The translations under genes were made by a program, and so were the position numbers. DNA of 36,583 nt from Thermincola carboxydiphila. Lineage in GTDB: Bacteria > Bacillota > Thermincolia > Thermincolales > UBA2595. Each line of letters opens with the position of its first letter. Within the stretch, counting starts at the first letter, position 1. The DNA is taken from the NCBI GenBank assembly GCA_016841325.1, contig JAENZJ010000031.1, positions 1-36,583 on the forward strand. Direction: 5' to 3'. This document shows positions 3,570-11,365 of this stretch, piece by piece. The notes below the pieces were generated by a model that did not search any database, was not told the origin of the DNA, and saw nothing but the letters and a program-made list of their open reading frames with translations.

Positions 3570-3730
3570 AAGCCCTCCCTATTCCTCCGGCAGCAGTGTG
3601 GAAATTTGTACAATAACTCATCATATTCTATTTCCGGCCATTCCGAAAGCCTACCACTTTTATTTTGTCCAAAAACAAGTCCTCTACCCCGCTTTTCAGC
3701 AGATGTAGAAGACTATTTATTTCACTTTGC

Positions 3731-3810
3731 CCTGCTTCATGACGTCCTTACTTTCATTATGGACCTTACTCATGGGCCTTGCTTCATTTTACCTTACTTC
3801 TCACGGGACC
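3731..3810. repeat. Degenerate short tandem repeat (CCTTRCTTCAT-like units)
   Basis: Five to six imperfect units related to CCTTACTTCAT, spaced 13-18 bp, run from the polX upstream region into the 3' end of the Ig-like fragment gene. Units visible on the plus strand include CCTGCTTCAT, CCTTACTTTCAT, CCTTACTCAT, CCTTGCTTCAT and CCTTACTTCTC. No function is evident. Confidence 0.4.
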
Positions 3811-4465
3811 TTAATCTTGCCTGTATTGTCACTGCGGCTGCGATCACCAGGGCAATAACTGCGGCAGCCCAGAGGTACAGACTGTACTTAATGGCCCCGG
3901 TTTCCGTCCCGGCGCTTTCCGGGTTAACCACAGCATTTGTGACTGCAGTAACAGTTTCCCAGGCATCAGATCCTGCGGAAATAGCCTTACTGTCAACAAG
4001 TACCGGTATCACAGGCAGTGAGAGATGTTGTTCAACCCGATAACCTGACTCGTCAATGGCCCTGATAGTGCCATCACCTGCAGGTACAACCGCCGCCCAC
4101 CGGCCTTTTTGAGTGCGGCTCAGTTTCACGCTGTTGGCGCCTACATAGTAGTCAATGGCCACAGCATTTAACAGCGGCTTGATTTCCAGCATATATTTGC
4201 CGTCAGCCTGAGCCGTGTGCTTAATCTCCATCAGGGGCAGGCTGTTGTCAATAGTGATGGTATAGGTGCTCTGCCTGGTAAGCCCTGACTTGTCAACAGC
4301 ATAAATCTCGATGGGATACGGTCCGTCAACTGTCCCAAAAGCAACCATAAAGACCGCTTCCCAAACACCGTCTTTGCCCGGCTTCAGTTCCAGTTTGCGA
4401 CCGGCAGGCAGCGGCATCTCCGTCCAGGATTGGAGTCTGATACAGCTGCTGCCAGAGGTGGGCAT
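3794..4465 (-). pseudogene. C-terminal fragment of a membrane-anchored Ig-like/beta-sandwich protein
   Basis: About 223 residues are readable. An Ig-like module (VWEAVFMVAFGTVDGPYPIE to STYTITIDNSLP, residues 34-90) is followed by a second beta-rich stretch, then one C-terminal transmembrane segment (YLWAAAVIALVIAAAVTI) with a positively charged tail RLRSREK, so the product would be anchored with its bulk outside the cytoplasm. No ribosome binding site precedes the ATG at 4465, and the open frame runs directly out of the overlapping HprK-like fragment. The N-terminus therefore appears lost at a deletion junction near 4465, and the listed start is probably not a real one. The family was not recognised; a surface protein with an extracellular domain is the most that can be said. 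Confidence 0.55.
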
Positions 4466-4788
4466 GGGTATGCAGGGTCTATGAACATCGTATATGAAGA
4501 CCAGTCCGCGGAGGCCACGGTGTATGACGGAATATCATGATTATCACCGCTTAAATTGTGAATGTGTTCCTGAGCTTCGTAAATGATAGTCCCCGGTGTA
4601 TTGGCAATTATATTGACCCCAGTCCCCGGTTTATCAGGACGTTTCCTGAATTCAACCCTACAGTATATATCCGGTTCGCCCTGCCGGCACGAAAAGAGTT
4701 TAAAGTTATCATGTAAGGCCCACTCCGGGGCAGAGATTTCTGTAACCAGGTCAGAAAAACGGTATTTCGCCAAGAGGTCATCCCCCAC
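4384..4788 (-). pseudogene. N-terminal fragment resembling HprK-like/PEP-carboxykinase-fold protein of RiPP clusters
   Basis: This fragment opens with a GTG directly after an in-frame stop and begins GDDLLAKYRFSDLVTEI. It contains DNFKLFSCRQGEPDIYCRVEF and SYTVASADWSSYTMF, a pattern I associate with the N-terminal half of HPr-kinase-like proteins that accompany PqqD and radical SAM maturases; this assignment is from memory and is moderate at best. In such proteins a P-loop domain (GxSGxGKST) would follow, but here the frame changes to unrelated sequence after about residue 105 and stops at 134. No P-loop is present and no good ribosome binding site precedes it. It is read as truncated by the same deletion that removed the start of the Ig-like gene. 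Confidence 0.45.
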
Positions 4789-4811
4789 TTATCCATGCTA
4801 AAAGAAAAGAA

Positions 4812-4827
4812 GCACACAATTGTGTGC
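4812..4827 (-). terminator. Perfect palindrome after the precursor-like peptide gene, possible weak terminator
   Basis: GCACACAA/TTGTGTGC is a perfect 16-bp palindrome 10 bp past the stop of the small peptide gene. On the minus strand it is followed by TTCTTTTCTTTT. The stem has no natural loop and the T-run is interrupted, so termination would be weak. A protein-binding operator is an alternative reading. Confidence 0.4.
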
Positions 4828-4837
4828 CTGCCTGTAA

Positions 4838-5011
4838 TTATGTACTCGCATTAGTTTTAAAGGCTGCCTCAGCAGGCATACTGGGTTCCCAACCGGGAAT
4901 ACCACTACAGCCTCGTGGAACGGCATTTCCCTTATTACATTCGGTGAAAACATTTTCGAATTGGGCATAGGCTTTCGCATCAAGCTCAGGTTTGCAATAT
5001 TCTTTTTTCAT
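4838..5011 (-). CDS. Small RiPP precursor-like peptide (57 aa) beside radical SAM/PqqD remnants
   Basis: A 57-residue peptide. Its leader-like half (MKKEYCKPELDAKAYAQFEN) resembles the leaders of precursors processed by PqqD-guided radical SAM maturases. The following half carries VFTECNKGN, PRGCSGIPGW and a polar tail ending in NAST. Cysteines are at 6, 25 and 35, so two lie in the presumed core. The start at 5011 is strongly supported by GAGGTG seven bases upstream, and the frame is intact. The gene is separated from the maturase remnant by 149 bp of AT-rich DNA and followed by a palindrome at 4812-4827. Family knowledge suggests the Cys/Gly-containing core would be modified (for example by thioether crosslinks), but the maturase next door is broken, so modification in this strain is doubtful. 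The exact family was not recognised. Confidence 0.7.
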   Translation of the reverse strand: MKKEYCKPELDAKAYAQFENVFTECNKGNAVPRGCSGIPGWEPSMPAEAAFKTNAST

Positions 5012-5160
5012 AATTTATCACCTCACTGCCTAAACAATACCATATAATACCAATTAGCATAAAATACTACTTAAAATAAAACTACCATATGTTATCAAAC
5101 TTGTCCAGCATTAATTTTCACAAAATTCTTGAATATTTCTCAGATCGTTTTGCTCTCTCT

Positions 5161-5658
5161 TTATATGTCTTCAAACAGGGTTGGCAGGCGGTCCCAGGCC
5201 TGCCGGAAACCCTCGGCAAACGGCAGGGTAAAGGGCCTGGCAAAGGAACCACAGGGCAGCATTTTGCCATCCCAGGTTATCCAGTACATGGATTTTGCCG
5301 CCAGGCAGGTAATGATTTTGGGTGGGAGATCAAATCCATATGCCCGCGCCTGTACAGGGGTCCCCCCCCCGGTAATCAGGAGATTCAGTGTCCCGGCCGC
5401 CGCAGCCTCTCTGGCCATGCCAATCCACTCATCTGCAGTCCTCTCCCTGCCTATCAGGTCCATTTGATGCTTGTCAAGCCTGATATAACACATCTTACAC
5501 CTCAGGTTGCACCGTGGTGTTAATTCAAATGTACCACCCAGAGGGACATGCCTCTGTGCGGCGTATCCGGCCAGGGTAATCTCCGAACGTTCCCACTTGC
5601 GGGCCAACTCATTGTTATCTGTTGATTCATTGTCTTTTTTCTTCAGATCAGTACTCAT
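5161..5658 (-). pseudogene. Radical SAM/SPASM peptide maturase, internally deleted and C-terminally truncated
   Basis: A 165-residue remnant of a protein normally well over 350 residues. The N-terminus keeps the radical SAM Fe-S motif C-x3-C-x2-C (CNLRCKMC, about residues 52-59) and the SAM-binding glycines LLITGG near residue 97. The next expected residues (EP) and most of the TIM barrel are missing. The frame jumps to C-terminal sequence beginning YGFDLPPKIITCLAAKSMYWITWDGKMLPCG, the start of a SPASM domain. After LPFAEGFRQAWDRL the frame ends at LFEDI, so the remaining auxiliary-cluster cysteines are also gone. The start overlaps the stop of the PqqD-like gene as ATGA, the normal coupled arrangement. 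The product could bind one cluster at most and is very unlikely to be active. Confidence 0.8.
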
Positions 5659-5921
5659 TCCTCAAGGACCCCGCTCTGCCGGGCAGTTTCAAGAAACTCA
5701 TCAAGATCGGCCCTGGCAGTTGCCTCATCAACCTCATATTCATTAAGTATGGCCGACAGTAATTGAGGGTAAGCAATATCTTCAGAGAGACATTTCCAGA
5801 TGAAATAACCGGAATCATTGAGGGTCATGATTCCCTTGAAGTCAATTACTCTTTCCCCAATGGGAACAACGATATGACAATCGGCAATTTCCCTGACAAG
5901 ATAACCGTCTTTAATTTTCTC
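5655..5921 (-). pseudogene. PqqD-like peptide-binding protein, start codon replaced by GAG
   Basis: Eighty-eight codons encode a complete-looking PqqD-type RiPP recognition element: KIKDGYLVREIADCHIVVP, IGERVIDFKGIMTLNDSGYFIW (the conserved N-x-x-G-x-x-x-W region) and a C-terminal helix DEATARADLDEFLETARQSGVL. Proteins of this family present the precursor leader to the radical SAM enzyme. The codon where translation should begin is GAG (5919-5921). It sits five bases after an AGGAG ribosome binding site and directly after the TGA of the upstream frame, so an ancestral GTG or ATG seems to have mutated. No other in-frame ATG, GTG or TTG precedes the conserved N-terminus; an ATT two codons in would be the only rescue. 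The stop overlaps the radical SAM start by 4 bp. Confidence 0.7.
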
Positions 5922-6200
5922 TCAATCTCCTGCCTTCCGTTTTAAAGTGGTCACGGGTACAAACGGCTTACAAGCCAGATATGCCAGGCGCTTCGGGTAG
6001 AAGAACAGAGCCCTGAAGGTACCAATATTATAGGAGCTCTTTATCCTCAGAATCGGTGGAAACATTTGGTGCCATAATGCCAATAAATAACCAGGCACTC
6101 CCTCATTGCGGACTATCCCGCTGGTAAACGGCCTCGGCACAACCAGCTCCGGAACAAAGAGACGCAGGATATTATGGATAATGAAAAATCATGGTAACCA
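5922..6200 (-). pseudogene. C-terminal fragment of an unidentified protein upstream of the PqqD-like gene
   Basis: An open frame runs from a stop near 6200 to TGA at 5922-5924 and reads HNILRLFVPELVVPRPF, GVPGYLLALWHQMFPPILRI and KRLAYLACKPFVPVTTLKR. It looks like a genuine protein C-terminus (hydrophobic and aromatic rich, basic end) and abuts the PqqD-like gene, so it is probably the 3' end of the gene that once preceded pqqD in this operon. No start codon with a ribosome binding site is present; a GTG at 6140 is internal to the fragment. Its upstream part collides out of frame with the epimerase fragment around 6185-6200, a deletion junction. I did not recognise the family. Confidence 0.45.
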
Positions 6201-6634
6201 CCTAACCATTCTGCGAACTTCCTGATTCCCCCTGCAAAATCCGTCTGTGGATTATATCCGAGGATTTTCTTTGCCTTCGAAATATCAGCAAAAGTACGGT
6301 TCACATCCCCGGGCTGCAGGGGCAATTTATTTAACACAGCTTTTTTGTTCAATGTATCTTCAAGAGTCCTGACCATTCTACTCAAACTGACTGTATTGGA
6401 CTCTCCCAAATTGAAAATTTCATATTTGCCGCTGCCTTCACTGACCCAATCAATGGCTTTGGTAACACCGTCAATAATATCATCAATATATGTATAATCC
6501 CGCTCAGTACTTCCATCTCCGTAAAACGGGACAGATTGCCCCGCTTTAATTAAGCCGGCAAACTTGTGTATAGCCAAATCACGTCTCTGCCTTGGTCCAT
6601 ATACCGTAAAAAATTTCAGGAAGGCCATATTGAT
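6113..6634 (-). pseudogene. UDP-sugar 4-epimerase (NAD-dependent epimerase/dehydratase), C-terminal fragment
   Basis: The readable frame covers roughly the last 155 residues of a UDP-glucuronate 4-epimerase-like enzyme: FFTVYGPRQRRDLAIHKF, FYGDGSTERDYTYIDDIIDG, KYEIFNLGES, LQPGDVNRTFADISKA and LGYNPQTDFAGGIRKFAEWL. The N-terminal half, with the NAD-binding GxxGxxG and the catalytic YxxxK, is absent. Homology appears to start at about FGIN, just before the ATG at 6628, right beside the hairpin at 6640-6675, with a stop six codons further upstream. The 3' end reads past the usual epimerase C-terminus into unrelated sequence (SIISCVSLFRSW onward), so both ends are breakpoints. The fragment cannot be catalytic. 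Confidence 0.75.
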
Positions 6635-6639
6635 GCCAA

Positions 6640-10875: not shown

Positions 10876-10933
10876 TGTCCTTCCTCCTTAAAACTCCGCA
10901 CTTCACGCGGAATTAAATTTTCCTTCATTTGTG

Positions 10934-11051
10934 GCGAGATGTTGCACAAGATTTTCCTTGCAGCGCCGCCGTGAGAAATGTTCCCGTACTTCGCCAGGAA
11001 CAAGGTTACTTTTCTCCGGCGGTGCTGCGGAAAATCGGTGCAATACCTCAC
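10934..11051. repeat. 118-bp imperfect palindrome between the T-box terminator and pheS
   Basis: The left arm GCGAGATGTTGCACAAGATT... and the reverse complement of the right end GTGAGGTATTGCACCGATTT... align over about 45 bp with few mismatches and two short gaps; the conserved core reads TTGCAC, GATTTTCC, GCAGC and CCGCCG. A smaller hairpin GTTCC...GGAAC fills the centre. It has the look of a MITE- or REP-type mobile palindrome. In the transcript it would fold into a long hairpin just before the pheS ribosome binding site. I recall similar palindromes in related genomes, but cannot test that here. Confidence 0.65.
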
Positions 11052-11063
11052 TACATTCCCGGC

Positions 11064-11365
11064 AAAAATAAAAAAGCCTTCTCCCGGTAAGGGACGAAAG
11101 CTATATATTCCGCGGTACCACCCTTTTTAGTTAAAGATAACCCACTCTTCTGCCAGGCCGCAGAACCTGCTGCTGCCTGCCTCCCTGTAACGGTGGAGGG
11201 TTCCGGCCAGACCTACTATTGCCCGGGCTTCTGACACCGGCAGCAAATTCAGTCCGCTGTTCCCGGGTGAACTTCACCTGACCTAACCAATAAGGGCTTC
11301 CAGTCTGCGGCCCTTAATCCCTGGTGGAAAATTATCCAGATTACTTCTCCCGTTCATCACATTTG
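11064..11365 (-). ncRNA. T-box riboswitch leader, specifier TTC (Phe), controlling pheST
   Basis: The T-box core AGGGTGGTACCGCGG is at about 11124-11110 on the minus strand, followed by the intrinsic terminator AGCTTTCGTCCC/GGGAGAAGGCT with TTTTTTATTTTT (11102-11065). Upstream, Stem I shows the AGTA element (11345-11342) on its 5' side and GAA-G-TTC-ACCC on its 3' side; the specifier codon TTC is 11271-11269 and encodes Phe, agreeing with the downstream genes. Uncharged tRNA-Phe would pair with TTC and with the TGGTACCGCG bulge to favour the antiterminator. Confidence 0.92.

Follow-up and report, generated by a model that had tools for sequence, protein, structure and literature searches.

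A broken RiPP locus with an open precursor gene

The window, by which we mean the whole 36,583-nucleotide stretch of Thermincola carboxydiphila DNA analysed here, carries on its minus strand, between positions 4838 and 5921, a PqqD/RRE gene (PF05402), a radical SAM/SPASM gene (PF04055) and a gene for a small leader–core precursor of 57 residues, in that order. Order, coordinates and strand had been given correctly in the first-pass annotation. The locus was compared with those of two congeners, G001 (record JAENYP010000005, labelled as a Thermincola ferriacetica MAG; locus L010) and G002 (locus L011), and with two further genomes, G185 and G076. In G001, G002 and G185, orthologues of the precursor adjoin intact PqqD–radical SAM pairs, bearing out the similarity to PqqD-linked precursors on which the annotation had made its reading depend.

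The PqqD/RRE gene (5655..5921, minus strand; PF05402, E 1.2e-15) has an intact body and has lost its start codon, as the annotation had noticed. Its frame opens TGA GAG AAA ATT AAA, with GAG where G001 and G002 have ATG, and the DNA alignment to G002, ATGAGAATAAAAG against A-GAAAATTAAAG, identifies the lesion as a 1-base loss inside the ATG. The first in-frame ATG, GTG or TTG lies at about residue 31 (ORF 5655-5828).

The radical SAM/SPASM gene is a remnant of 165 amino acids (5161..5658, minus strand), in which the N-terminal CxxxCxxC part is fused in frame to the start of the SPASM domain. PF04055 matches it at profile positions 2-56 of 166 only, and it aligns with the continuous 380-384-codon maturase of G001 and G002 in two blocks, residues 1-93 and 265-329. 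Relative to the 383-residue G002 orthologue, residues ~95-264 (about 0.5 kb) are missing through a first, in-frame deletion, at whose junction the GGE motif reads GGG, and residues ~329-371 are absent through another loss of ~0.12 kb, which causes a frameshift; most of the barrel and the end of SPASM are thus gone, as described earlier. A run of nine G residues marks one of the junctions.

Between this remnant and the precursor gene, a conserved intergenic stretch (5012..5160, minus strand), 92-97% identical to G002, carries the precursor ribosome-binding site, GGCAGTGAGGTGAT. The precursor gene (4838..5011, minus strand) is intact. It encodes 57 amino acids, with a YxxP leader (YCKP) and a core starting near CNKGN, and is 70% identical to the G002 peptide and 67% to that of G001. 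Its stop codon is followed by a terminator-like hairpin plus T run (4810..4829, minus strand; z -2.67), with a hairpin at the same place in both congeners. A sigma-70 promoter scan upstream of the gene found none. Two peptide classes were considered and rejected: a lasso precursor, as G001 has no cyclase and no acidic residue occupies a constant ring position, and a Cys-Asp ranthipeptide, as the CX3D motif is absent.

The damage extends over about 3.8-6.6 kb. Whereas the three central genes are as first described, the lesions also cover genes on both sides, beyond the extent given in the annotation, and the kinase, protease, exporter and nucleotidyltransferase genes are truncated or gone as well. 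On the 3′ side of the precursor lie the N-terminal 100 codons of an HprK-fold kinase (4474..4773, minus strand; 83% DNA identity to G002), open but truncated, then a short internal kinase fragment around the P-loop (4387..4470, minus strand; 86-88% DNA identity to G001 and G002), displaced by a deletion of ~0.18 kb. A deletion of ~6.7 kb, which removed the protease, the ABC exporter, a second PqqD gene and a second kinase gene, joins this fragment to the C-terminal part of a Cna-B-like surface protein (3794..4412, minus strand; 74.7% DNA identity to the C-terminus of a 658-aa protein of G001). On the other side, the 3′ remnant of an uncharacterised, LppN-like nucleotidyltransferase of the PF14907 type (5960..6138, minus strand) is 83% identical at the DNA level to the end of L011:2775-3926, the intact G002 gene (PF14907, E 4e-44). 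Beyond it, the C-terminal part of an NAD-epimerase gene from the flanking polysaccharide locus (6189..6638, minus strand; 85% DNA identity to the G001 epimerase) ends in a deletion junction, and PF16363 and PF01370 match its C-terminal half only. A dispersed intergenic repeat also occurs in the window at 10925-11065 (and at 3580-3654), with 19 matches in the genome at E <= 1e-5 and related copies in G001.

The separate lesions are the PqqD start codon, the two radical SAM deletions, the kinase deletion, the ~6.7 kb deletion and the truncations of the nucleotidyltransferase and the epimerase; deletion junctions lie near 5357, 5162, 4473 and 4387. Through all of them the ancestral order is kept: epimerase C-terminal part, nucleotidyltransferase tail, PqqD body, two radical SAM pieces, whole precursor, two kinase pieces and surface-protein C-terminal part. 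That they are assembly or base-calling errors in a cluster that is intact in the organism is very unlikely: the nine-G run at one radical SAM junction speaks for it, but at least six separate lesions are spread over ~2.8 kb, the homology beside them is clean and the gene order is conserved, and the assembly, of 49 contigs, has 99% completeness and 1% contamination. It can hardly be credited, either, that the shortened genes are functional minimal versions, with AUU as the PqqD start codon and a partner assisting a mini radical SAM protein. The first radical SAM deletion does leave an open 165-aa frame and an ATT codon does stand two codons after the lost PqqD start, but the GGE motif and the greater part of the SAM barrel are missing, a frameshift affects the end of SPASM, and kinase, protease and exporter have been lost too.

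Intact clusters in related genomes

The comparison with related genomes that the first-pass annotation had suggested finds intact clusters in both congeners. G001 and G002 each encode an intact maturase of 380-384 residues, a PqqD protein starting with ATG and a precursor, and these syntenic versions identify the window locus as a real decay of an ancestral RiPP cluster, in agreement with the original description of a radical SAM cassette whose maturation genes are broken while the precursor gene is intact. The genes of G002 run in the order CapD-like protein, metallophosphatase, PF14907 nucleotidyltransferase, lasso cyclase, paeninodin precursor, HprK-like kinase, PqqD and B2 protease, followed by PqqD, radical SAM enzyme, precursor, kinase, signal-peptidase-like protease and ABC exporter, and then by PqqD, a kinase-like protein, an S24/S26-like protein and the Cna-B-like surface protein (the names metallophosphatase, S24/S26-like and Cna-B-like come from reading the sequences, with no family search). 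G001 has the same order minus the nucleotidyltransferase and the lasso cassette; a lasso cyclase, B2 protease and lasso precursor are absent from both G001 and the window. The set of PqqD, kinase-like and S24/S26-like genes downstream of the exporter (L011:12821-14651 and L010:3480-5294) has no obvious precursor of its own.

A structure model of the G002 kinase (pLDDT 84.6) matches PEPCK/HprK folds (1ko7, 1kkl, 1jb1); a Pfam search recognised neither the kinase nor the protease. The best family for the protease is TIGR02228 (signal peptidase I, archaeal type), below cut-off, in G001, G002, G185 and G076. The exporter of G002 is an MsbA-type ABC protein, with a homologous ABC ORF in G001. A profile of the PqqD protein finds TbiB1, PbaB1 (9x90), FusB1/TfuB1, LppB (9x8z, E 4e-4) and lasso RREs. 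The intact-cluster maturase falls outside all NCBIfam equivalogs (best score 98 bits, cut-off 500), and the PDB holds no relative of it at E <= 1e-8, nor any relative of the precursor.

The family is narrowly distributed. Searched against 398 genomes of the phylum at E <= 1e-40, the maturase profile has matches in this genus, G185 and G076 only, and the maturase is absent from the other seven genomes of the class. Genome contigs scanned with the precursor alone yielded no relative, and with the maturase G001 only. G185 has a close maturase orthologue accompanied by a CNKGN precursor of its own, and a further, divergent cluster. G076 has two divergent clusters, at least one of them with PqqD, a YxxP-leader peptide, a kinase, an ABC protein and a signal-peptidase-like protein. 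Divergent clusters at L034:6176-9517 and L035:6902-11726, in unrelated Bacillota, include PqqD, a radical SAM/SPASM enzyme, an HprK-like kinase, a signal-peptidase-like protease and Cys-containing peptides with YxxP leaders. These last two suggest that the combination of a radical SAM enzyme with a gene set like that of the linear polyphosphorylated peptides (LPPs) recurs.

No replacement machinery in the genome

With the start codon of PqqD lost, two large deletions in the maturase gene and no second copy of either, the genome lacks a functional maturase with its RRE. The first-pass annotation had proposed searching the genome for another PqqD with a radical SAM/SPASM protein, and that search came back empty: no second PqqD is found at E <= 1, the single match being the window copy, and no second maturase of the window family is present. 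Only two other SPASM proteins are encoded, both above their NCBIfam cut-offs: NirJ2 (617 against 500 bits) and the SCIFF maturase (608 against 425). The latter gene (L022:424-1848; TIGR03974) is intact. Modification of the peptide by an enzyme encoded elsewhere is thus unlikely, as there is no other PqqD and the remaining SPASM proteins are NirJ2 and the SCIFF maturase. A search for further precursors gives one convincing case, that of the window, the remaining matches having E values of 0.24-0.5.

Age of the decay and the open precursor frame

The annotation had offered three outcomes for the peptide: persistence as an orphan, modification by an enzyme encoded elsewhere, or gradual loss. Under the first two, selection would keep the precursor, as an unmodified signal, decoy or regulator or as the substrate of a distant enzyme. 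The gene does look cared for: it retains its reading frame, ribosome-binding site, YxxP leader, both cysteines and terminator, as a selected gene would, which we count against decay, and its leader region has 97-98% DNA identity to G002, with zero synonymous differences in the leader. The core has only about 62% DNA identity to G002, with pN about equal to pS, and departs at the DEEW common to G001 and G002, which speaks against retention by selection.

The other remnants are also open internally. Between the window and G002, dN/dS is 0.075 for PqqD, 0.136 for the N-terminal part of the radical SAM gene and 0.118 for that of the kinase, with no internal stops. Over the ~1.1 kb of non-deleted remnants outside the precursor (PqqD, radical SAM N- and C-terminal parts and kinase pieces), there are 0 in-frame stops and 2 small lesions, the PqqD start and the G run at the junction. 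Few stops or frameshifts and low dN/dS together show that the loss is recent. Substitutions private to the window have an N:S ratio of 27:39; that of the two relatives is 19:46, a non-significant difference (Fisher p 0.20), so most of the window branch was under constraint; roughly the last tenth of it may have been unconstrained, with a wide error that includes zero.

At the lesion rate of the remnants, simple arithmetic gives a probability of about 0.73 that a 174-bp ORF stays clean, and at a neutral divergence of 0.01-0.035 per site the probability that it is intact is 0.30-0.84. A frame of this length is therefore expected to be intact by chance, and selection on the precursor need not be invoked. 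Its intactness, which the annotation had taken as a possible sign of orphan persistence, is the state to be expected of a short ORF when decay is recent; the gene owes its open frame chiefly to its small size and the youth of the decay, without evidence of continued function.

The near-identity of the leader to G002 belongs to a tract of low divergence, at about 5325-4940, in which dS is 0.14 in the dead SPASM fragment and 0 in the precursor leader, against 0.67-1.09 outside it, in PqqD, the radical SAM N-terminal part and the kinase. Since the tract takes in the dead fragment, recombination explains it better than selection on the peptide; it was probably acquired from a G002-like lineage and ends near the leader/core boundary, which would explain both low values. 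An orphan precursor held by selection is accordingly an unlikely account, the more so as no second PqqD or family maturase exists and the remaining SPASM enzymes serve heme d1/heme and SCIFF pathways. Among the three outcomes, a peptide on its way out is the best supported, modification by an enzyme elsewhere is disfavoured, and orphan persistence has no positive evidence.

Comparison with known RiPP systems

In the SynChlorMet (Scm) cassette (NCBIfam TIGR04248/04249/04250), PqqD-like, HprK-like and radical SAM/SPASM proteins occur together with a small precursor. The intact relatives give weak ScmC, ScmD and ScmE matches, but all are far below cut-off (33 against 125, 45 against 100 and 79 against 400 bits). 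With PqqE/PqqD-type and SCIFF or ranthipeptide maturases, the cluster shares a radical SAM/SPASM enzyme with a PqqD-type leader-binding partner, but its maturase belongs to no NCBIfam equivalog.

Further parallels are with the LPPs and the paeninodin lasso peptides. LPP clusters are located in capsule loci, frequently next to paeninodin lasso clusters, and the two pathways are kept apart by YxxP and WxxP leaders; LPP gain and loss is patchy and rapid, with the Bacilli stressed (PMC13381572, Nat Commun 2026). The absence of the maturase from the other seven genomes of the class agrees with such patchiness. The LPP leader motif is YxxPxVLxHQxIxFETxxS, serine is phosphorylated at core position 3, and an S3T core is not phosphorylated (PMC13381572). 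The intact relatives similarly have a discrete RRE, an HprK-fold kinase, an MsbA-like exporter and, in G002, the PF14907 nucleotidyltransferase; for their protease, archaeal-type signal peptidase (TIGR02228) is the best match but stays below its cut-off; a polysaccharide locus adjoins, and in G002 a paeninodin lasso cassette with a WxxP leader lies beside the cluster. When the LPP leader is set against leaders of the window type, YxxPxL and FE are in register, but HQ, I and T(-1) are not.

Two features differ. The intact relatives have a radical SAM/SPASM enzyme (dead in the window), and core position 3, by leader register, is T in the window, G001 and G002 and A in G185. Radical SAM is never mentioned in the main text of PMC13381572. 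Given this and the T or A at core position 3, we call the cluster LPP-like and not an LPP member. The literature found on a radical SAM plus HprK arrangement amounted to the LPP paper plus general papers on RREs or RiPPs.

The lasso cassette of G002, which lies between the nucleotidyltransferase and the PqqD–radical SAM pair, has a cyclase matching NF033535, a B2 protease, an RRE (NF033536) and a precursor (NF033524), the last being a small ORF at L011:5872-6003 (MKKEWQRP...FLHSS; E 1.8e-11). It shares with the radical SAM cluster an HprK-type kinase, a nucleotidyltransferase and the YxxP/WxxP leader logic. The window precursor, by contrast, matches no lasso family, the window has neither cyclase nor B2, and the radical SAM-linked RRE scores below the lasso RRE cut-offs. 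Within G002, the lasso leader WQRP goes with a lasso-type RRE (NF033536, 127 versus 80 bits) and the radical SAM leader YCKP with another RRE, which fits the separation of WxxP from YxxP leaders.

A recently inactivated cluster and its intact relatives

We conclude, with a probability of about 0.84, that the locus is a recently inactivated RiPP cluster whose ancestral form is still intact in G001 and G002. In the ancestor, the PqqD/RRE protein would have bound the YxxP leader and presented the precursor to the radical SAM/SPASM enzyme. That enzyme probably introduced a crosslink, or a modification of another kind, into the Cys-containing core (CxKGN...C). The HprK-fold kinase probably phosphorylated the precursor, the signal-peptidase-like protease would have cut off the leader and the MsbA-like ABC protein would have exported the peptide. 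In this genome, a few deletions of 0.12 to ~7 kb, together with small lesions, destroyed all of this machinery and presumably its function, and the 174-bp precursor survived as a small target in a young decay.

A more tentative proposal, which we hold to be somewhat less probable than not, is that the fossil represents a RiPP type that joins the LPP kinase, protease and exporter set to a radical SAM/SPASM enzyme. Its peptide would be both phosphorylated and radical-SAM-modified at the conserved CxKGN core, and the type would coexist with a lasso pathway because YxxP and WxxP leaders are told apart. It would be intact in G001, in G002 and, for its core genes at least, in G185, with clusters of related composition in G076.

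As an orphan precursor the window gene is ordinary, a young pseudogene cluster being expected to retain its smallest ORF. The lasting interest lies in an LPP-like cluster with a radical SAM enzyme, intact in relatives and found here among Bacillota that are not Bacilli, beside a lasso cassette that differs at the leader Y/W position. The three congeners form a natural series, full in G002, without the lasso cassette in G001 and decayed in the window, in which rapid cluster gain and loss is made visible.
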